From: Pseudomonadota bacterium | Lineage (GTDB): Bacteria; Pseudomonadota; Gammaproteobacteria; Steroidobacterales; JBCBZW01 | Length of the DNA: 64,000 nt | Direction: 5' to 3' | Assembly: GCA_039193195.1 (NCBI GenBank) | Contig: JBCCWS010000004.1 | Coordinates: 165,908 to 229,907 of the forward strand | Shown here: positions 26,218 to 54,778 of the stretch, piece after piece | Position numbering within the stretch: position 1 is the first letter of the stretch | How the letters are laid out: each line of letters opens with the position of its first letter | Position numbers and translations under genes: made by a program | The notes under the pieces: model-generated | Seen by the model: only the letters and a program-made list of their open reading frames with translations | Told to the model about the DNA's origin: nothing | Databases searched by the model: none

Positions 26218-26531
26218 GTCACCACGCCGTGCCGCGCGTCCGATCTTGGCCTCTCCAGCTTCCAGCGCCAGGAGGCGCGGTGCCAGCGACGGATCAGCGC
26301 GTGGGCGCATCTCGTGGGGAAGTTCGGCTCCAGTCGCGATCAGACGCCGACGAGGATTGCGCGCTGCGCAGCTAACAGAATCTATCGTTGGCTCAGTGCG
26401 CAAAAAAACCAACAGCAGGGCAGGGTATCCCGTTGCAGCGCGGGCGCAAGACCGTGGCAACGGATGTGCTCATGATGACCGGATACGCCCCTGGACTTGA
26501 TTTCGCCGAGCCCGCATCGGACTATCTACGT
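26218..26531. other. Non-coding stretch before the cobalamin riboswitch
   Basis: These 314 bp carry no gene I can support. Short open frames exist on both strands but none has a ribosome site or protein-like composition. The stretch should contain the promoter of the riboswitch transcript; I could not pick out a convincing -35/-10 pair. Confidence 0.6.
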
Positions 26532-26721
26532 CGACGGTGCCCGAAGGGGCATAACAGGGAATCCGGTGCCCGGTCATTACTATGCGTGGCTGGAATACCG
26601 GAGCTGCCCCCGCAACTGTGAGCGGTGAAGCGCGCTGACCCGAGTCACTGATGCCCCCCTAGTACCGGGACATCGGGAAGACCAGCGCCGCCATGCCCGC
26701 AAGCCAGGAGACCTACCGTCG
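26532..26721 (+). ncRNA. Cobalamin riboswitch
   Basis: A complete AdoCbl-type riboswitch on the plus strand. The closing P1 stem is perfect over 7 bp: CGACGGT at 26532-26538 with ACCGTCG at 26715-26721. Between them lie the conserved blocks in order: GGGGCATAACAGGGAATCCGGTG, given here by its core GGGAATCCGGTG; the core GAGCTGCCCCCGCAACTGTG and following AGCGG near 26600-26625; GTCACTG at about 26644; and the B12 box, AGCCAGGAGACC near 26702-26713. Such elements repress B12 synthesis, B12 or cobalt uptake, or B12-independent isoenzymes. No recognisable gene of those classes follows, which is odd. Confidence 0.93.
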
Positions 26722-26751
26722 CGTTGCTCAGCTGTTCTGGTCGGCCGGGGT

Positions 26752-47070: not shown

Positions 47071-47556
47071 ATGCCTACCGACCTCGATGACGCTGACTAT
47101 CGCATCCTGCACCAACTGCAAGGAAACGCGCGTCTGTCGAACAAGGCCCTCGCCGAACGCGTGGCCCTCTCCGCCTCGCCTTGTTGGCGGCGGGTGCGGG
47201 AGCTCGAGGACCAGGGGGTCATCGCCGACTACGTAACACGCCTGGATCGCCATCAACTCGGCTATCGCATCTTGGCGCTGGCGAGCGTGTCTTTGGAGAA
47301 CCACCATACCGAGTCGGTGGCGGCCTTCGACGGGGCGATCCAAACCTGGCCTGAAGTTCTTGAGTGCCACAAGATTAGCGGCGCTTATGACTACATGCTC
47401 AAGGTCGTCGCCGAGGATCTGGCGAGCTACGACGAATTCATCTCTAACCGCGTCCTGCAGCTGTCCTGCGTGCGCGAGCTGAATACCACCTTCTCCATGC
47501 GGGAGATGAAGAGCACTACCCGCCTCCCCCTGCCCGGTGACACGTGGGCGAGATGA
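47071..47556 (+). CDS. Lrp/AsnC-family transcriptional regulator
   Basis: The 161-residue protein has an N-terminal winged HTH (residues 3-60, DADYRILHQLQGNARLSNKALAERVALS) and a C-terminal ligand-binding RAM domain ending before the SMREMKSTT stretch. Such proteins sense amino acids; BkdR of Pseudomonas is the family member that activates branched-chain oxoacid dehydrogenase genes from the same divergent position. That role is likely here. ATG 47071 fits the normal family start; the frame runs far upstream as a shadow of E1. The 132-bp interval to the E1 gene holds an AT-rich stretch just before the ATG. Confidence 0.9.
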   Translation: MPTDLDDADYRILHQLQGNARLSNKALAERVALSASPCWRRVRELEDQGVIADYVTRLDRHQLGYRILALASVSLENHHTESVAAFDGAIQTWPEVLECHKISGAYDYMLKVVAEDLASYDEFISNRVLQLSCVRELNTTFSMREMKSTTRLPLPGDTWAR

Positions 47557-47560
47557 CGAC

Positions 47561-47589
47561 TTGTCAGCGCCGTTAGACGATGGTGAAAT
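47561..47589 (+). promoter_or_regulatory. Candidate promoter of the arginine leader
   Basis: TTGTCA (47561-47566) and TGAAAT (47584-47589) are separated by 17 bp and match the sigma-70 consensus at five of six and four of six positions. Transcription would begin near 47596, at the second ATG of the leader frame, which would make the leader mRNA nearly leaderless. A promoter further upstream, inside the lrp gene, would leave the GGTGA at 47582-47586 free to act as ribosome site. Both are possible. Confidence 0.4.
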
Positions 47590-47592
47590 GCA

Positions 47593-47670
47593 ATGATGAC
47601 GAACGTAAGCGCGCCCACCGCCATCCGTCGCCGACTGCGACGCCGACGCTCCCGAAGCATCCCCGGGTAG
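47593..47670 (+). CDS. Arginine-rich leader peptide of the arg operon attenuator
   Basis: A 25-codon frame from ATG ATG at 47593 to TAG 47668-47670, too short for routine gene calling. Eight arginine codons fall within 47626-47655, giving IRRRLRRRRSRS near its C-terminal half (codons CGT, CGC and CGA). GGTGA at 47582-47586 is a possible ribosome site six bases ahead. It lies between the lrp stop and argF' and is followed 48 bp later by an intrinsic terminator. This matches the layout of ribosome-stalling leader peptides such as those of his, leu or thr operons, with arginine as the sensed amino acid. Function is inferred, not shown. Confidence 0.65.
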   Translation: MMTNVSAPTAIRRRLRRRRSRSIPG

Positions 47671-47718
47671 AGCACGCGCGCGCAGGCGACACACAGGCCG
47701 CACACCGTTCCTCGAAAG

Positions 47719-47741
47719 CCCGGCATCCGCTGGGTTTTTTT
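47719..47741 (+). terminator. Intrinsic terminator/attenuator in the arg operon leader
   Basis: CCCGGC (47719-47724) pairs with GCTGGG (47729-47734) over 6 bp with one G-U pair and an ATCC loop, directly followed by seven T (47735-47741). It ends 55 bp before argF'. A competing helix is possible between CCGGGT at 47663-47668 (end of the leader frame) and GCCCGG at 47718-47723, which would destroy the terminator. It could also simply end the lrp transcript, but it is 163 bp from that gene. Confidence 0.75.
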
Positions 47742-47796: not shown

Positions 47797-48804
47797 ATGC
47801 GACACTTCCTGACCACCGCCGATTGGTCACGCGACGAGTTAGCTCACCTGTTGAGCGAGGCTGCCAAGCTCAAACGGGCGCGCTTCAACGATGCCCTCGC
47901 CGAGCGCAGCATCGCCCTGCTTTTCTTCAATCCTTCGCTTCGAACGCGAACGTCCTTCGAGCTCGGCATGCACGAACTCGGCGGCAAGGCCATCGTGCTC
48001 CAGCCGGGAAAGGACGCGTGGGGTATCGAGTTCGAGCCTGGTGCGGTCATGGATGGCGACGCGGAAGAGCACATCAGCGAGGTCGCCGGGGTGCTCTCAC
48101 GCTACGTCGATCTGATCGGGGTACGTGCCTTTCCCAAGTTCCAAGATTGGACGGTGGACCGCGAGGATCGTCTACTCAACGCCCTGGCCAGCCACGCCAG
48201 CGTACCGGTGATCAACATGGAGACTATCACCCACCCGTGTCAGGAACTGGCCCTGATGCTCACCCTAAAGGAGCACCTGGGGCGCTTGGACGGAAGACGC
48301 TTTCTGCTCACCTGGACGTACCACCCGAAGCCCTTGAACACCGCGGTGGCGAATTCAGCCCTCCTCATCGCCTCAAAGTTCGGCATGGACGTCACCTTGC
48401 TTTGCCCAAACGTGGACTATCTCCTCGATAAGCGCTACATGCACCTAGGCCAAACCTTCGCTGAGCAAAACGGTCGTTCCCTGAAGGTCACCCACGATGT
48501 AGACGAGGCCTACGAAGGCGCCGACGTGGTCTACGCCAAGAGCTGGGGCGCGCTGCCCTACTTTGGTCGCTGGGAAGAGGAGAAGCCCGTGCGAGAGGCG
48601 CACCGCCACTTCATGGTGGACGAGGCGAAGATGGCGCGCACGGACCGCGCACTGTTCAGCCATTGCCTGCCCGTGCGACGAAACGTGAAGGTAAGTGACG
48701 CCGTGCTGGACTCCCCGGCATGCGTCGCCCTCGATGAGGCGGAGAACCGCCTGCACGTCCAAAAGGCCCTAATGATCGATCTGCTGCAGAGGACCGGCTC
48801 ATGA
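47797..48804 (+). CDS. argF': N-acetylornithine carbamoyltransferase
   Basis: Carbamoylates N-acetylornithine to N-acetylcitrulline in the Xanthomonas-type arginine pathway. The 335-residue protein has the carbamoyl phosphate loop NPSLRTRTSF (residues 45-54), HPCQE, and the acetylornithine-type motif WTYHPKPLNTAVANSAL in place of the ornithine transcarbamylase counterpart. The segment MDGDAEEHISEVAGVL carries the glutamate that in the Xanthomonas enzyme selects the acetylated substrate. The C-terminal HCLPVRRNVKVSD is conserved. ATG 47797 is used; the frame opens earlier at 47740. The stop overlaps argG by 4 bp. It is the first gene of the arg operon, behind the putative attenuator. Confidence 0.93.
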   Translation: MRHFLTTADWSRDELAHLLSEAAKLKRARFNDALAERSIALLFFNPSLRTRTSFELGMHELGGKAIVLQPGKDAWGIEFEPGAVMDGDAEEHISEVAGVLSRYVDLIGVRAFPKFQDWTVDREDRLLNALASHASVPVINMETITHPCQELALMLTLKEHLGRLDGRRFLLTWTYHPKPLNTAVANSALLIASKFGMDVTLLCPNVDYLLDKRYMHLGQTFAEQNGRSLKVTHDVDEAYEGADVVYAKSWGALPYFGRWEEEKPVREAHRHFMVDEAKMARTDRALFSHCLPVRRNVKVSDAVLDSPACVALDEAENRLHVQKALMIDLLQRTGS

Positions 48805-50027
48805 GCAAGCCCATCGTACTCGCCTTCTCTGGCGGCCTAGACACCAGCTACTGTGTGCCATGGCTGCGCGAACAGGGCTATGAGGTGACGACCCTCTTCG
48901 TCGATTCCGGCGGCGTCAGTCGCGAAGAGGTTGACGCCATCGAAGCTCGCGCGCATGAACTGGGCGCCGTGCGCCACATCACCTTCGAGGGTGGCGAGCG
49001 CCTTTGGCAAGACGTCGTGATCCCCCTGGTAAGAGCCGGCGCTACCTATCAGGATCAATATCCCCTGCTGTGCTCCGATCGCTACCTTGTCGTGCAACGA
49101 TCCTTGGAACTGTGTCGCGAAATTGGTGCCTCGCACTTTGCCCACGGGTGCACGGGCATGGGCAACGATCAGGTGCGCTTTGATATCGCCGCCAAAACCC
49201 TCGGCGATGCATCTGGAGGCATCACGATCGTCGCTCCGGTGCGCGAGGCGCAGGCCCAGGTGGATGGCGTGAGGGACTACGAGATGGCCTACCTGCGCGA
49301 GCGTGGCTTCGAAGTATCGGCGAAGACCAGCCGCTACACGGTGAACGAGAACCTACTCGGGGTCACCATCTCAGGCAACGAGATCGACGAGTGGCAGGCC
49401 CCCGGCGAGGGCACCTGGCAACTGTGCCGACCCCGCGCCGAATGGCCGTCCGAGCCGATGTCCGTGCAGATCGACTTCGCCGACGGCGTAGCCGTAGGCC
49501 TAGACCGTGTGCCGGTGGCCGGCGCCGAGCTGCTGCAGACCCTCAATCAGCGCTTGGGTACATACGGCGTCGGCCGCGGCATCTACACGGGCGATACGTG
49601 CGTGGGCCTGAAGGGCCGTATCGTGTTCGAGGCGCCCGGGCTTACAGCGCTGCTGACTGCCCACCGCGCGCTGGAAGAAGCGGTGAGCTCACGCCTGCAA
49701 AACCGTTTCAAGCCGATGGTCGCTGACAAGTGGGTGGAACTCGCTTACGAGGGACTGTTCTTCGATCCGCTAAGAGCCGATCTCGAGGCCTACCTGGCAA
49801 GCGCGGAGCGCACGGTCAACGGCCGGGTGACCCTGTCGACGGACGGTGCGCAGGTGCAAGCGACGGCTGTGGAATCGCCACACCTGTTGCGCGACGCCGA
49901 GGCAGTGTACGCACAAAGGGCGAGTTGGAGCGGCGTTGAGGCCCAGGGGTTCATTCGCTTGTTCGGCCAGAGCTCTCGCCTTTGGTCTCAGGTCAACGGC
50001 AGCAGCCTGACGGAGAACGACTCATGA
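48801..50027 (+). CDS. argG: Argininosuccinate synthase
   Basis: Joins citrulline and aspartate with ATP. The 408-residue protein starts with the N-type ATP pyrophosphatase loop AFSGGLDTSYC (residues 8-18) and keeps the GCTGMGNDQVRF substrate motif. Its start overlaps the argF' stop as ATGA, and its stop overlaps the argE' start. The sequence is of the shorter, Xanthomonas-like type. Confidence 0.95.
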   Translation: MSKPIVLAFSGGLDTSYCVPWLREQGYEVTTLFVDSGGVSREEVDAIEARAHELGAVRHITFEGGERLWQDVVIPLVRAGATYQDQYPLLCSDRYLVVQRSLELCREIGASHFAHGCTGMGNDQVRFDIAAKTLGDASGGITIVAPVREAQAQVDGVRDYEMAYLRERGFEVSAKTSRYTVNENLLGVTISGNEIDEWQAPGEGTWQLCRPRAEWPSEPMSVQIDFADGVAVGLDRVPVAGAELLQTLNQRLGTYGVGRGIYTGDTCVGLKGRIVFEAPGLTALLTAHRALEEAVSSRLQNRFKPMVADKWVELAYEGLFFDPLRADLEAYLASAERTVNGRVTLSTDGAQVQATAVESPHLLRDAEAVYAQRASWSGVEAQGFIRLFGQSSRLWSQVNGSSLTENDS

Positions 50028-51169
50028 CCGATAGGCAGACCTTGGTGCAGACCCTCGAGCACCTGCGCGCCCTGGTGTCCTTCGATACGCAGAACCCACC
50101 GCGGAACATCGACGAGGGCGGCTTGTTCGCCTACGTCGCAGAGCAACTTCCCGACTTCCGCGTCACGGTCGACAACCTCGGCGACGGCTGCGTGTCGTTG
50201 CTGGCGGTACGAGGTGAGCCCGACACCGTGTACAACGTGCATATGGATACGGTGCCTGGTACGGCGCACTGGCAGCGGGATCCGCTGACTCTCAGTGTCG
50301 AGGACGATCGCGCCTACGGGCTCGGCGCCTGCGATATCAAGGGCGCCGCAGCTTGCCTACTGACGGTGGCATCACAGAGCGCTAGCCCCATGGCGCTGCT
50401 GCTCAGCTCCGACGAAGAGGCCGGGAGCAATCACTGCATCCACAGCTTCTTAGGGACCGACCATGGCTTTCGCCGAGCTGTGATCGCCGAGCCGACCCAG
50501 TGTGAAGCGGTACTTTGCCATCGCGGCATCAACTCTTGGGCGGGCCGCTTCGCCGGCGAAGCAGGACACTCGTCCCAGGCGCGCGCCCTCACCGACAGCG
50601 CCCTGCACCAGGCAGCCCACTGGGTTAGCGCTGCCGTTCGGTGGGCCGAATGCCAGCAGCGAGAGGCTCAGTTCGACAGCTTGCAAGGGCTCTGTTTCAA
50701 CACGGGCACGCTGCACGGTGGCGTCAAGAACAACGTCATCGCACCATCAGCTGAGGTCACCTTTGGCTTTCGCCCGCTGCCGGGCCAATCGCCGCAAGCC
50801 TTGGCTCTGGAGGTGCACTCGCTTCACCAGGGACCACATCCAGTGCAATGGACGCCGCGCTACGCGGGCCCCGCCCTACCGGACGCCGACGCGCACGGTG
50901 GTTTCGATCAGGCTCTGGCCCACGCAAGCGCCTTGGCGCATGACCTGGGGCTGCCGATCGGCGCTGCGGTGGACTTCTGGACCGAGGCGGCCTTGTTTTC
51001 CGCGGCTGGGCTCCCTGCGCTGGTCTTCGGCCCAGGCGCTATAGAGCAAGCACACACAGCGGACGAGTGGGTCAGCCTGGAGCAGTTGAGCACTGCGCTC
51101 GGGCACTACCAGCGCATCTTCGGCGCGGCGGCGGGCACTAGCCCTCCGGCGGCGATCGGCGGAGGCTGA
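50024..51169 (+). CDS. argE': N-acetylcitrulline deacetylase (ArgE-type M20 peptidase)
   Basis: A zinc-dependent M20 family amidohydrolase of 381 residues. Metal and catalytic motifs are HMDTVPG (His with Asp), the GLGACDIKGAAACLL segment and SSDEEAGS with the general base Glu. In operons with argF', this enzyme deacetylates N-acetylcitrulline to citrulline; acetylornithine activity is also possible. ATG 50024 overlaps the argG stop. The next gene starts 2 bp after its stop. Confidence 0.9.
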   Translation: MTDRQTLVQTLEHLRALVSFDTQNPPRNIDEGGLFAYVAEQLPDFRVTVDNLGDGCVSLLAVRGEPDTVYNVHMDTVPGTAHWQRDPLTLSVEDDRAYGLGACDIKGAAACLLTVASQSASPMALLLSSDEEAGSNHCIHSFLGTDHGFRRAVIAEPTQCEAVLCHRGINSWAGRFAGEAGHSSQARALTDSALHQAAHWVSAAVRWAECQQREAQFDSLQGLCFNTGTLHGGVKNNVIAPSAEVTFGFRPLPGQSPQALALEVHSLHQGPHPVQWTPRYAGPALPDADAHGGFDQALAHASALAHDLGLPIGAAVDFWTEAALFSAAGLPALVFGPGAIEQAHTADEWVSLEQLSTALGHYQRIFGAAAGTSPPAAIGGG

Positions 51170-51171
51170 GC

Positions 51172-52485
51172 ATGAAGACCCGTCGTCTGGTGGTGCAGCT
51201 GCTCGGTAGCATCGGCAGCACCCGGGAGATTCGCCAGTACCTCCAACGCTTCTCAGGCCTGGATACGCACAGCTTCGCGGTGGTCAAGGTGGGCGGCGCA
51301 ATCCTGCGCGACCAGCTGGACGATCTCGCCGGCTCCTTGAGCTTTCTGCACCAGCTCGGGCTGTTCCCGGTGGTCGTGCACGGGGCTGGACCTCAGCTCG
51401 ACGAGGCCCTAGACGCCGCTGGCATCGAACGCCACTACCACGAAGGGATGCGTTGCACGTCGGCCGAGGCGATGCCTCATATCCGCGCCGTCGTCCTGCG
51501 CCAGAATCTCGCCCTGGTAAGCGCGTTGGAGCGCAATGGAGCACGGGCCCGATCGATTCTCACGGGCACCTTCGAGGCGCAGCTCATCGATCAGCCGACC
51601 TACGGCTACGTGGGTCGGGTCGAGCGGGTACATACGGAGGCCATCGATGCCAGCATCGAGGCAGGCTGTATTCCCGTGCTCGGATGCCTGGGCGAGACTA
51701 CCGGCGGGCAGACCCTGAACGTCAATGCAGATCTCGCTGCCAACGAGCTGGTCGCAACCCTGCAGCCAAACAAGATCGTGTTCCTCACGGGCACGGGCGG
51801 ACTTCTCGATGAGCACGGGGAGATCCTGTCCTCCATCAACTTGCGCACAGACTACGACGCGCTGATGAACGCCGCGTGGGTGCACTCCGGCATGCGGGTA
51901 AAGCTGCAGCAGATCAACGCCCTGCTCCAGCGACTGCCACCGGACAGCTCCGTGTCCATCACCCGTCCCCAAGCCTTGGCGCGCGAGCTGTTTACGCACG
52001 GCGGCGACGGCACTCTCGTGCGTCGCGGAGAACAGGTGCACGCCTACGACTCGTGGCAGGCGCTAGATCGCGAACGGACGCGATCGTTGATCGAGTCCGC
52101 CTTCCAGCGTCGACTCGTGCCCGGGTACGAGGAGCGAGTGCCCCTGAGAGCGGCCTACATATCCGACAGCTATCGCGCAGGGGCCATCATCGGCGATTGG
52201 AACGGCATTGCCCGTCTAGACAAGTTCGCCGTTGCCGACCAAGCGCGTGGGGAGGGGCTCGGGCGGGTCATCTGGGAACGCGTACGCACCCGACACCCGA
52301 GCATGTTCTGGCGCTCACGCCCGAGCAACCCCGTAAACGACTTCTACTTCGCACAGAGCGATGGATGCATGAAGGGCGATGACTGGAATGTCTTCTGGTA
52401 TGGCCTCGACGACTTCGACCTGATTCGCGGCTGCATAGAGCACGCCCGATCGCAGGCACCGAGCCTCACGGACCACCCGCAATGA
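51172..52485 (+). CDS. argAB: Bifunctional N-acetylglutamate synthase/kinase
   Basis: The 437-residue fusion carries out both first steps of arginine synthesis. The amino acid kinase domain (about residues 30-285) shows VVKVGGAILRDQ, VVVHGAGPQLDEAL and LNVNADLAANEL. The GNAT acetyltransferase domain (about 295-437) shows LDKFAVADQARGEGLGRVIW. This arrangement is the NAGS-K type of Xanthomonas and relatives, close to vertebrate NAGS, and is usually inhibited by arginine. Its ATG is 2 bp after argE', and the stop overlaps argC by 4 bp. Confidence 0.93.
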   Translation: MKTRRLVVQLLGSIGSTREIRQYLQRFSGLDTHSFAVVKVGGAILRDQLDDLAGSLSFLHQLGLFPVVVHGAGPQLDEALDAAGIERHYHEGMRCTSAEAMPHIRAVVLRQNLALVSALERNGARARSILTGTFEAQLIDQPTYGYVGRVERVHTEAIDASIEAGCIPVLGCLGETTGGQTLNVNADLAANELVATLQPNKIVFLTGTGGLLDEHGEILSSINLRTDYDALMNAAWVHSGMRVKLQQINALLQRLPPDSSVSITRPQALARELFTHGGDGTLVRRGEQVHAYDSWQALDRERTRSLIESAFQRRLVPGYEERVPLRAAYISDSYRAGAIIGDWNGIARLDKFAVADQARGEGLGRVIWERVRTRHPSMFWRSRPSNPVNDFYFAQSDGCMKGDDWNVFWYGLDDFDLIRGCIEHARSQAPSLTDHPQ

Positions 52486-53432
52486 GCGCTCGGGTCGCGC
52501 TGATTGGCGCCCGGGGGCACACGGGCAGCGAGCTCGTAAGACTGATAGATCAGCATCCTCAGCTGCAGCTGGCCGCTGCCGGCTCGCGAGCGTTGGCAGG
52601 AGAGTCGGTCGGGGCGCACTACCAAGTTGATTCGACGCTCACCTTCGAGGTCCTTGCGCCGCAGAGCCTTGGTGCGCGTGACGGGGAGTTCGATGTCGTG
52701 ATCCTAGCGCTGCCTAACGGGCACGCGGCCGCTTACGTCAACGCCTTGAGCGCTCAGCGCCAGCTCCCCCTCGTGATCGACCTCAGCGCCGATCATCGCT
52801 TCGACGATCGCTGGTTTTACGGTCTGCCCGAACTGACGGCCCATCGCTACGCGGGACAGCGGCTGATCGCCAATCCTGGCTGCTACGCAACCGCTATGTC
52901 CCTAGCCCTCGCCCCGATGGCTCAGGACCTGAGAGACGGCGTGGCCTGCTTCGGCGTCTCTGGCTACAGCGGCGCCGGCACCAGCCCGTCCCAGCGCAAT
53001 GATCCCAATCGCCTGCATGACAACCTGCTTCCTTACGCCTTGACCGACCACGTGCATGAGCGAGAAGTCAGCCACCAGCTGGGTATGGGCGTTGCCTTCA
53101 CGCCGCACGTGGCGCCGTTCTTTCGCGGCATTAGCATGACCGTAACGGGTTGGTTGCGAGAGGCGGGCGCCGCCGAGGATCTCGCTGACCGCTTCGCCAA
53201 CTGGTACGCCGAGCATCCACTCATCGTCGTTGGCGAGGGTATCCCGGAGCCACGTGCCTTGGTCGGGCGTCACGGTGCGCAAATCGGCGGTTTCGGGCGC
53301 GGCAGTCACGACACCAATCGCATCACCGTGGTGAGCGCCCTCGACAACCTCCTCAAGGGAGCTGCTTCGCAGGCCATCCAGAACATCAACCTCGGGCTCG
53401 ATCTGCCCGCGCTCAGTGGATTGACCCCATGA
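52482..53432 (+). CDS. argC: N-acetyl-gamma-glutamyl-phosphate reductase
   Basis: Reduces N-acetylglutamyl phosphate to the semialdehyde with NADPH. The 316-residue protein has the N-terminal nucleotide-binding GARGHTGSELVRLI and the catalytic cysteine in NPGCYATA (Cys134). Length is normal. The start overlaps argAB, and the stop overlaps argH, both by 4 bp. The acetylornithine aminotransferase (argD) step is not encoded in this operon. Confidence 0.95.
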   Translation: MSARVALIGARGHTGSELVRLIDQHPQLQLAAAGSRALAGESVGAHYQVDSTLTFEVLAPQSLGARDGEFDVVILALPNGHAAAYVNALSAQRQLPLVIDLSADHRFDDRWFYGLPELTAHRYAGQRLIANPGCYATAMSLALAPMAQDLRDGVACFGVSGYSGAGTSPSQRNDPNRLHDNLLPYALTDHVHEREVSHQLGMGVAFTPHVAPFFRGISMTVTGWLREAGAAEDLADRFANWYAEHPLIVVGEGIPEPRALVGRHGAQIGGFGRGSHDTNRITVVSALDNLLKGAASQAIQNINLGLDLPALSGLTP

Positions 53433-54778
53433 CCGATGAACGACGAGAGACCCCCTCCCCGACCCTACTATGGCGCAAGGAAGGCGCAGCTCAGGTCGAC
53501 GCCGAACTAATGGCATTCATGGCCGGTGACGACATCGTGCTTGACCGAGAGCTGTTCGTTCACGACATTGCGGCGTCGCGCGTTCACGCGGCCGCGCTAG
53601 CCTCCATAAGGGTCCTGGAGGACGACGAACTGAAGGCCATCGAGGCTAGCCTCGACGCCCTCCGGGCTGCGTACACAGGTGGTGACTTCACCCTTGACTC
53701 ACGCTACGAAGATGGCCACTCCGCGATTGAAGACTGGCTAACGAAAGATCTGGGTAAGCTGGGAGCGAAGATCCACACGGGGCGCAGTCGCAACGACCAG
53801 GTACTGGTGGCGAGCCGCCTCTATCTGCGTGAGGCCCTCGAGGAGGTCGAGTCACTCTGCGCGCAGCTCGCCTCGATCTGCCTGGAGCGAGCGGACGCCG
53901 ATATGCTCACCCCAATGCCGGGCTACACGCACCTGCAGCGTGCCGTCGTTTCCTCTCTTGGTTTATGGTTTGCCGGCTTCGCCGAGGCGTTCATCGACGA
54001 CGTAGTGCTCAGCCGCGACACGCGGCGCTGGATCGACGCCAATCCGCTCGGCACCGCCGCAGGCTACGGCGTCAGCTTGCCCCTAGACCGTGAGCTCAGC
54101 ACGCGCGCACTCGCCTTCGAGCGCCTGCAGGTCAACCCGATCTACGCACAAAATAGTCGCGGGCGATTCGAGCTGCAGGCACTCACGGCGCTGTCCCAGG
54201 TGCTGATGGATCTGCGTCGAATCAGTTGGGACCTGAGCTTGTTCGCCGCCGCCGAGTTCGACTTCTTGAGACTTCCGGATCGGTACACGACGGGCTCTTC
54301 GATCATGCCCAACAAGCGAAACCCAGACCCGGTGGAGCTGCTAAGAGCGGCGCCTGCACCGGTGTTGGGAGCGATCACCGAGCTGCAGTCGCTGTTGAGC
54401 CTGCCCAGCGGCTATCAGCGCGACCTGCAGCTCACCAAGGGGCCGATGGTGCGTGGAGTGAGAGCGAGCTTGCAGGCGCTGCGCATCTCCGTCGGGCTGC
54501 TCACGGACGTCGACTTCGACCGAACGCGCATGGCTGAGGCGATCTCACCGGACATGTACGCCACGGACTACGCCTACGAGCTGGTGGCCGAGGGCATGCC
54601 TTTCCGTCAGGCTTATCGCGAAGCGGCGGCCCGGACCGAGGAGTCAGCACCGCGCGACCCCGTCGCGAGCCTGCGTCGGCGGATCTCACCGGGCGCACCG
54701 GGCCAACCGCTGCTCGATACGCTGCGCAAGCGTCTTTCTGCGCTCTCTGACGTCGGCGCCGGCGGCGGCCTCGGCTAG
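53429..54778 (+). CDS. argH: Argininosuccinate lyase
   Basis: Releases fumarate to give arginine. The 449-residue protein carries the fumarase/aspartase signature as GSSIMPNKRNPDPVEL, in which Asn and Arg replace the more usual Gln and Lys. HTGRSRNDQV and the TPMPGYTHLQRA regions (substrate-binding) are intact. It is the last arg gene; the TPR gene starts 11 bp later. Confidence 0.95.
   Translation: MTDERRETPSPTLLWRKEGAAQVDAELMAFMAGDDIVLDRELFVHDIAASRVHAAALASIRVLEDDELKAIEASLDALRAAYTGGDFTLDSRYEDGHSAIEDWLTKDLGKLGAKIHTGRSRNDQVLVASRLYLREALEEVESLCAQLASICLERADADMLTPMPGYTHLQRAVVSSLGLWFAGFAEAFIDDVVLSRDTRRWIDANPLGTAAGYGVSLPLDRELSTRALAFERLQVNPIYAQNSRGRFELQALTALSQVLMDLRRISWDLSLFAAAEFDFLRLPDRYTTGSSIMPNKRNPDPVELLRAAPAPVLGAITELQSLLSLPSGYQRDLQLTKGPMVRGVRASLQALRISVGLLTDVDFDRTRMAEAISPDMYATDYAYELVAEGMPFRQAYREAAARTEESAPRDPVASLRRRISPGAPGQPLLDTLRKRLSALSDVGAGGGLG

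Follow-up and report, generated by a model that had tools for sequence, protein, structure and literature searches.

An arginine-codon leader before argF' as a likely ribosome-mediated attenuator of arginine biosynthesis genes

In a stretch of bacterial DNA of 64,000 nucleotides (hereafter the window), a leader element precedes the arginine genes argF'-argG-argE-argB-argC-argH. We consider it highly likely that this element acts as a ribosome-mediated transcription attenuator, which would respond to the supply of arginyl-tRNA and would replace the repressor ArgR. When arginine is short, the leader would very probably switch the arginine-making genes on. This reading is built on the parts of the element, their conservation, their covariation and their genomic context, all of which are observed directly in genome sequences. 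The features concerned are as follows.

47071-47556, lrp-like gene, the 5' neighbour; the 240-nt interval between it and argF' houses the leader element
47561-47589, + strand, promoter-like element (TTGTCA, 17 nt, TGAAAT), recognized by its letters; the scan of the window did not list it
47593-47670, + strand, leader open reading frame (ORF) MMTNVSAPTAIRRRLRRRRSRSIPG, 25 codons, from ATG at 47593 to TAG at 47668-47670
47626-47655, + strand, putative regulatory Arg run in the sequence, 8 Arg codons in 10
47663-47668, + strand, antiterminator segment CCGGGT, overlapping the last sense codons and the first stop base
47715-47741, + strand, intrinsic terminator AAAGCCCGGC-ATCC-GCTGGGTTTTTTT, fold -15.7 kcal/mol, z -3.8
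47718-47723, + strand, antiterminator partner GCCCGG within the terminator 5' arm, able to pair with 47663-47668
47797-48804, + strand, argF', N-acetylornithine carbamoyltransferase, first gene 3' of the leader (NCBIfam NF003384, 562.6 bits, cut-off 288)
48801-50027, + strand, argG (NF003385, 612.2 bits, cut-off 603)
50027-51169, + strand, argE-type deacetylase (NF006439, 472.7 bits, cut-off 345)
51172-52485, + strand, argB, acetylglutamate kinase of the long (437 aa) type (NF003387, 599.4 bits, cut-off 426)
52482-53432, + strand, argC (TIGR01850, 288.8 bits, cut-off 233.6)
53429-54778, + strand, argH (TIGR00838, 291.4 bits, cut-off 279.5)

Because argG, argE, argB, argC and argH follow argF' on the same strand, most of the pathway could be under a single switch, provided that the genes are co-transcribed. 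All 8 Arg codons among the 25 of the leader fall within 47626-47655, and 55 bases separate the T7 tract of the terminator from the argF' ATG at 47797. The original prediction had placed the frame, the eight Arg codons, the hairpin, the T7 tract, the pairings and the 55-bp distance at these same positions, and all of them check. The hexamer spacing of the promoter-like element is identical in a sister species (L003), and the window RNA would start a few bases from the leader ATG.

The terminator 5' arm can pair with either the terminator 3' arm or the antiterminator segment. From this arrangement we infer that the leader is translated, that ribosomes stall on it when the tRNA is uncharged, and in which direction control runs. 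With plentiful arginyl-tRNA, a ribosome would reach the stop codon and cover 47663-47668, the terminator would form and transcription would end near 47741. If arginyl-tRNA is short, the ribosome would stall on the Arg run and leave 47663-47668 free to pair with 47718-47723, in which case the terminator would be blocked and the operon read. What would be expected of a ribosome-mediated attenuator appears to be present in the window: a leader ORF with an Arg run, an intrinsic terminator, an antiterminator that excludes it, a suitable geometry and a position before an arg operon.

The terminator consists of CCCGGC (47719-47724), the loop ATCC, GCTGGG (47729-47734) and T7 (47735-47741), and its stem can be extended by AAAG (47715-47718). 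Despite the stability of this hairpin, a consensus terminator scan of the window reported none at 47715-47741. Folded alone, the antiterminator stretch of the window is not unusual (z -0.27). Among 20,000 Markov versions of the lrp-argF' interval, 149 contain a terminator with an antiterminator; adding an ORF with at least 6 Arg codons to the same joint criteria leaves 3 of the 20,000, and with at least 8 Arg codons none pass. The alternative to be weighed here is a plain terminator that happens to follow a chance Arg-rich frame in GC-rich DNA. A warning that such DNA makes Arg runs by chance had accompanied the original prediction and is borne out, given that 8 Arg in 10 codons occurs at 7 places across the six frames of the window, leader included. 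Hence, the Arg run alone would prove little. With loose joint criteria (at least 4 Arg), 3 distinct places in the window pass, again including the leader. The single window sequence is weaker evidence than the Markov figures sound, and it is the comparison across genomes that decides.

The argF' loci have four sources: the order of the window, with 21 of 296 genomes at E <= 2e-96; a sample of the class, with 5 of 369 genomes, our own included; a second order, with 148 of 180 genomes, of which 133 are among the loci and 15 were left out; and named records, with at least 80 loci from Rhodanobacter, Dyella, Frateuria, Luteibacter, Tahibacter, Dokdonella, Kangiella and others. At least 200 nt of upstream DNA was available for 232 of 234 loci, with L226 and L231 excluded for having less; L002 (not argF') and L112 (partial) are likewise outside the count. 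The 232 loci include near-duplicates from two collections, and 111 leaders are non-redundant by 6-mers. Using criteria for the RNA parts (terminator and antiterminator) that are blind to the peptide, the pair lies upstream of argF' in 215 of the 232 loci, and in 211 of the 232 an ORF with 3 or more Arg among its last 22 codons also ends there. Upstream of ornithine carbamoyltransferase genes in the window's order the pair was found in 0 of 49 control loci, which were the top of a list and not a random draw. As a Markov null, 2320 sequences gave 103 with terminator and antiterminator and 32 with an Arg ORF as well.

The explicit criteria leave 17 of the 232 argF' loci undetected. Four of these (L020, L166, L177 and L238) have a weaker form of the element by eye, and three (L221, L240 and L243) belong to genomes that carry the element before another arg gene. 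For five more (L149, L189, L195, L200 and L234), an RNA model of the leader, R1, found no match on the operon strand of the surrounding stretches (L320-L324). Those stretches are argF' regions of family f203, some of which do not span the whole operon; ArgR was likewise not found in these genomes. About six detected loci of family f202 (L210, L212, L220, L224, L233 and L237) have a doubtful antiterminator. The element lies immediately before argG in two genomes (G740 and G760, loci L315 and L316; leaders MIEAIALATTDNLRPGRLPRRRVRHSGRGVH and MMIEAIAHAGIDSPRPGRLPRRPRRVRYSGRGVH) and immediately before argB in a third (G667, locus L317; leader MNHATAAIASSTNAARPALRPCPRRPRRSPTNGWDAR), which indicates that it travels with arginine genes and is not simply the upstream DNA of one gene. 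Most argF' loci of the window's order are among the 38 leaders on which R1 was built and therefore match by construction. The background of R1 is high, with 154 of 292 genomes (argF' genomes included) at E <= 0.01; the counts above therefore rest on the explicit criteria. R1 was also used to look for a second site in our own genome, but none is accepted, the next match having an E value of 0.42 (150 of 2261 first-look candidates scored). Of the extra matches, two with high scores (L318 and L319) proved to be ordinary terminators that follow unrelated genes.

In 211 leaders, 21% of the residues are Arg, compared with 5.7% in 131 argF' genes. Averaged over the 111 non-redundant leaders, 22 codons contain 4.6 Arg in the frame of the ORF versus 2.95 and 2.65 in the other frames; in this composition analysis the automatic ORF choice is wrong for a few loci, among them L014, L105, L160, L164 and L201. 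The codon CGA accounts for 65 of 228 leader Arg codons versus 49 of 986 in genes of the same non-redundant loci, an enrichment that may serve stalling or RNA pairing. Two loci that are AT-rich by eye (L020 and L021) encode Arg as AGA and AGG, in the leaders MFNLIGKERNRRPAI and MKLNTTNEARRIQL.

When 38 leaders are aligned, pairing of the antiterminator helix holds in 91.7% of cells, whereas slid versions reach 17-55%. Double changes occur in 11 cells, every one of them at the same pair. Shuffling reached the percentage paired in 0 of 500 cases and the covariation score in 2 of 500, although the number of double-changed pairs (one) was reached by 468 of 500. Nine terminator pairs are kept in 36-38 of the 38 leaders, and the innermost, tenth pair in 14 of 38. 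Three-way covariation was counted in the 185 of 211 leaders whose arms fit the patterns. At the variable position, read as segment, 5' arm and 3' arm, the combinations are C-G-C in 109 loci, T-A-T in 57, T-G-C in 7, T-G-T in 3 and C-G-T in 1, and a mismatched C-A-T (C/A mismatch) occurs in 8 of the 185. In three loci (L215, L235 and L244) the arms are of another sequence, CCTGG with CCAGG, and all three segments changed together. The leader stop may be TAG, TAA or TGA, yet the antiterminator that overlaps or adjoins it persists (L115, L116, L175, L188, L223 and others). Alignment of related genomes had been proposed with the original prediction, and it turned out as the prediction requires: the Arg frame, the terminator and the antiterminator are conserved, and the segments covary. 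A terminator beside a chance Arg-rich frame is contradicted by this conservation and covariation, by the AGA and AGG codons of the two AT-rich loci and by the empty controls, even though chance Arg runs do occur in the window, and we assign it a negligible probability.

The geometry agrees with the attenuator reading. We kept 100 of the 111 non-redundant loci, excluding by eye those whose frame or antiterminator looked wrong (L014, L105, L143, L155, L160, L164, L201, L210, L222, L224 and L233), and assumed that a ribosome covers 17 nt behind the A-site codon and 13 nt ahead of it. The median distance from the first base of the run's last Arg codon to the start of the antiterminator segment is 19 nt, and from there to the stop codon it is 7 nt. 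With the modelled ribosome on the run's first Arg, the segment is free in all 100 loci; with it at the stop codon, the segment is touched in 98 of 100.

A protector (1:2) helix is usual in textbook attenuators, and we take it as not defining. The original prediction had included one, in which GTCGCC (47627-47632) pairs with GGCGAC (47685-47690), giving a three-hairpin attenuator. Both segments are present in the window, and the pairing forms in the minimum-energy fold of the whole window leader, and this fold is more stable than those of shuffled sequences (z -2.2). However, GGCGAC is missing in the sister species, and pairing between the Arg run and the post-stop region is hardly above composition (median Z -0.76 in 141 loci and 0.13 in 70 loci), so that little or no pairing excess is left to speak for it. 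The antiterminator values in the same test (median Z -4.2 and -3.3) are not independent evidence, given that the segments were preselected for pairing. A working protector helix is hence improbable, and this part of the prediction is not supported.

Neither ArgR (PF01316) nor its C-terminal domain (PF02863) was found in our own genome (G000, 98.7% complete), with control genomes positive. In the window's order ArgR is present in 0 of 21 argF' genomes versus 243 of 275 others, in a split made at the E <= 2e-96 used for argF', with fragments (e.g. G062) counted as others. In the second order it is present in 0 of 148 argF' genomes versus 8 of 32 others. In the two order samples argF' and ArgR thus never occur together (0 of 169 argF' genomes with ArgR), although these counts come from related genomes and are hence not independent events. 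ArgR was also not found in the 39 searched genomes of named loci (0 of 39). The 8 ArgR genomes of the second order are all from family f205, where the search detected no argF'. The best explanation would be that the attenuator stands in for ArgR in the genomes where ArgR was not found. Together, the conservation of the parts, their covariation, the moves of the element with arg genes and the missing ArgR support the core of the original prediction, namely an Arg-codon leader with a terminator and an antiterminator that a stalled ribosome would free.

Ribosome-mediated attenuators control his, leu, ilv, thr, phe and trp operons. The arg leader shares with them a run of cognate codons, a terminator before a biosynthetic operon and an exclusive antiterminator at the end of the ORF. 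It differs in the amino acid, arginine, in that a protector helix is unsupported, in probably having almost no 5' untranslated region and in that it would replace a repressor. In fungi, the arginine attenuator peptide is an arginine-responsive upstream peptide before an arginine-pathway gene, but this system is eukaryotic and the peptide acts on translation. Leader-peptide systems are treated in PMC2965389 and PMC1262725; 'arginine' and 'argF' are both absent from the main text of the former. The closest precedent we met for Arg codons as a sensor is orf34 in the speF leader of Salmonella, where arginine is sensed through two consecutive Arg codons and ribosome pausing (PMC6386406). As proposed for the arg leader, Arg codons in a leader ORF sense arginine; the gene is a polyamine gene, Rho and RNase G are involved and no intrinsic terminator was found (PMC6386406). 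In Pseudomonas aeruginosa, attenuation and a leader peptide have been proposed for carA, a gene that feeds arginine synthesis; the attenuation is assigned to pyrimidines, and arginine acts at the transcriptional level (PMC4997734). The mechanism is hence of a known kind, and we found no description of it for arginine biosynthesis, or of any arginine-operon attenuator, in the literature searched, a search whose coverage leaves out most subscription papers. The statement in the original prediction that no Arg leader of this kind is established needs qualifying, given that speF orf34 senses arginine by another route. If the reading is true, arginine joins the amino acids sensed by ribosome-mediated attenuation, and a likely arginine control is at hand for Gammaproteobacteria with the acetylornithine route and no detected ArgR.

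In four families (f28, f195, f196 and f197, which we take for Xanthomonadaceae, Rhodanobacteraceae and relatives) the leader peptide has a conserved core. In 65 fetched loci, chosen by family and aligned by nucleotide consensus, Ala(-6), Ala(-3), Met, Thr, Ser, Arg, Ala, Arg and Arg are present in 65 of 65 and Gly(-1) in 63 of 65. The Ala, Gly, Thr and Arg codons change synonymously, and codons 8-12 are free to vary. Since the MTSRARR core is kept despite synonymous change, a nascent-chain role is possible in those families, not in the leader of the window. There the peptide itself might stall the ribosome, perhaps with free arginine as ligand, while the downstream RNA switch would be the same. 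Invariant residues with synonymously varying codons are unlike pure codon-counting leaders. Against arrest, leaders outside the four families share little beyond Arg runs, as codon counting predicts; the window's own leader is without the core; part of the core is also constrained at the RNA level (TCG in 64 of 65 loci, CGA in 62 of 65); and the nucleotide-consensus alignment may somewhat favour it. We regard arrest as unlikely. In the same tentative spirit, the four families could have an arginine-responsive arrest peptide (A-x-x-A-[AS]-G-M-T-S-R-A-R-R, mostly then P) on an almost leaderless mRNA, derived from a codon-counting attenuator like that of the window, with ArgR loss, the acetylated arginine pathway and the RNA switch having co-evolved. 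The conserved core would then be a test case for codon-counting leaders turning into arrest peptides. The last Arg codon of MTSRARR is CGA in 62 of the 65 loci, although in the genes of an overlapping set 2% of Arg codons are CGA.

When 20 loci were searched permissively against Rfam, five f28 leaders (L115, L116, L175, L187 and L197) were found to match RF02242, the family of the Xoo5 RNA, which is entered as a Xanthomonadaceae sRNA, at 101-146 bits (gathering threshold 50), and are thus the same RNA stretch; three further loci match below the threshold. In the three loci examined the match starts 2 nt before the leader ATG. As described in PMC3039613, sRNA-Xoo5 of X. oryzae was detected by Northern blot, had its 5' end determined by 5' RACE and is 124 nt long, with bands of about 130 and 100 nt, the longer one only in early growth. 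Going by these published data, a short leader RNA that starts at the leader ORF accumulates in X. oryzae; the gene downstream of Xoo5 in strain PXO99 is presumably argF', judging from the matching loci. Neither 'argF' nor 'leader' occurs in the main text of PMC3039613, and the Rfam title is likewise without an argF' leader. A leader that extended to the T run would measure 155-157 nt, more than either published band, and in the matching loci the published 3' end is reached 31-33 nt before the T run; trimming or cloning could lie behind the gap.

That the element is instead a trans-acting small RNA like Xoo5, with its own terminator and merely upstream of argF', has in its favour that Xoo5 was published and curated as an sRNA (RF02242; PMC3039613). 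It is nevertheless very improbable, given that the three examined matches begin right before the conserved Arg-rich ORF and that the element accompanies arg genes when they are rearranged; in addition, the abstract of PMC3039613 reports seven sRNA deletions without obvious phenotype, which may or may not include that of Xoo5. If the attenuator reading is true, it provides a probable identity for Xoo5, an orphan 'sRNA' family. The leader of the window differs from Xoo5, described as an sRNA, in giving no RF02242 match at the gathering threshold. At that threshold the sole Rfam match in the whole window is a cobalamin riboswitch at 26518-26734 on the + strand (105.1 bits), away from the leader.
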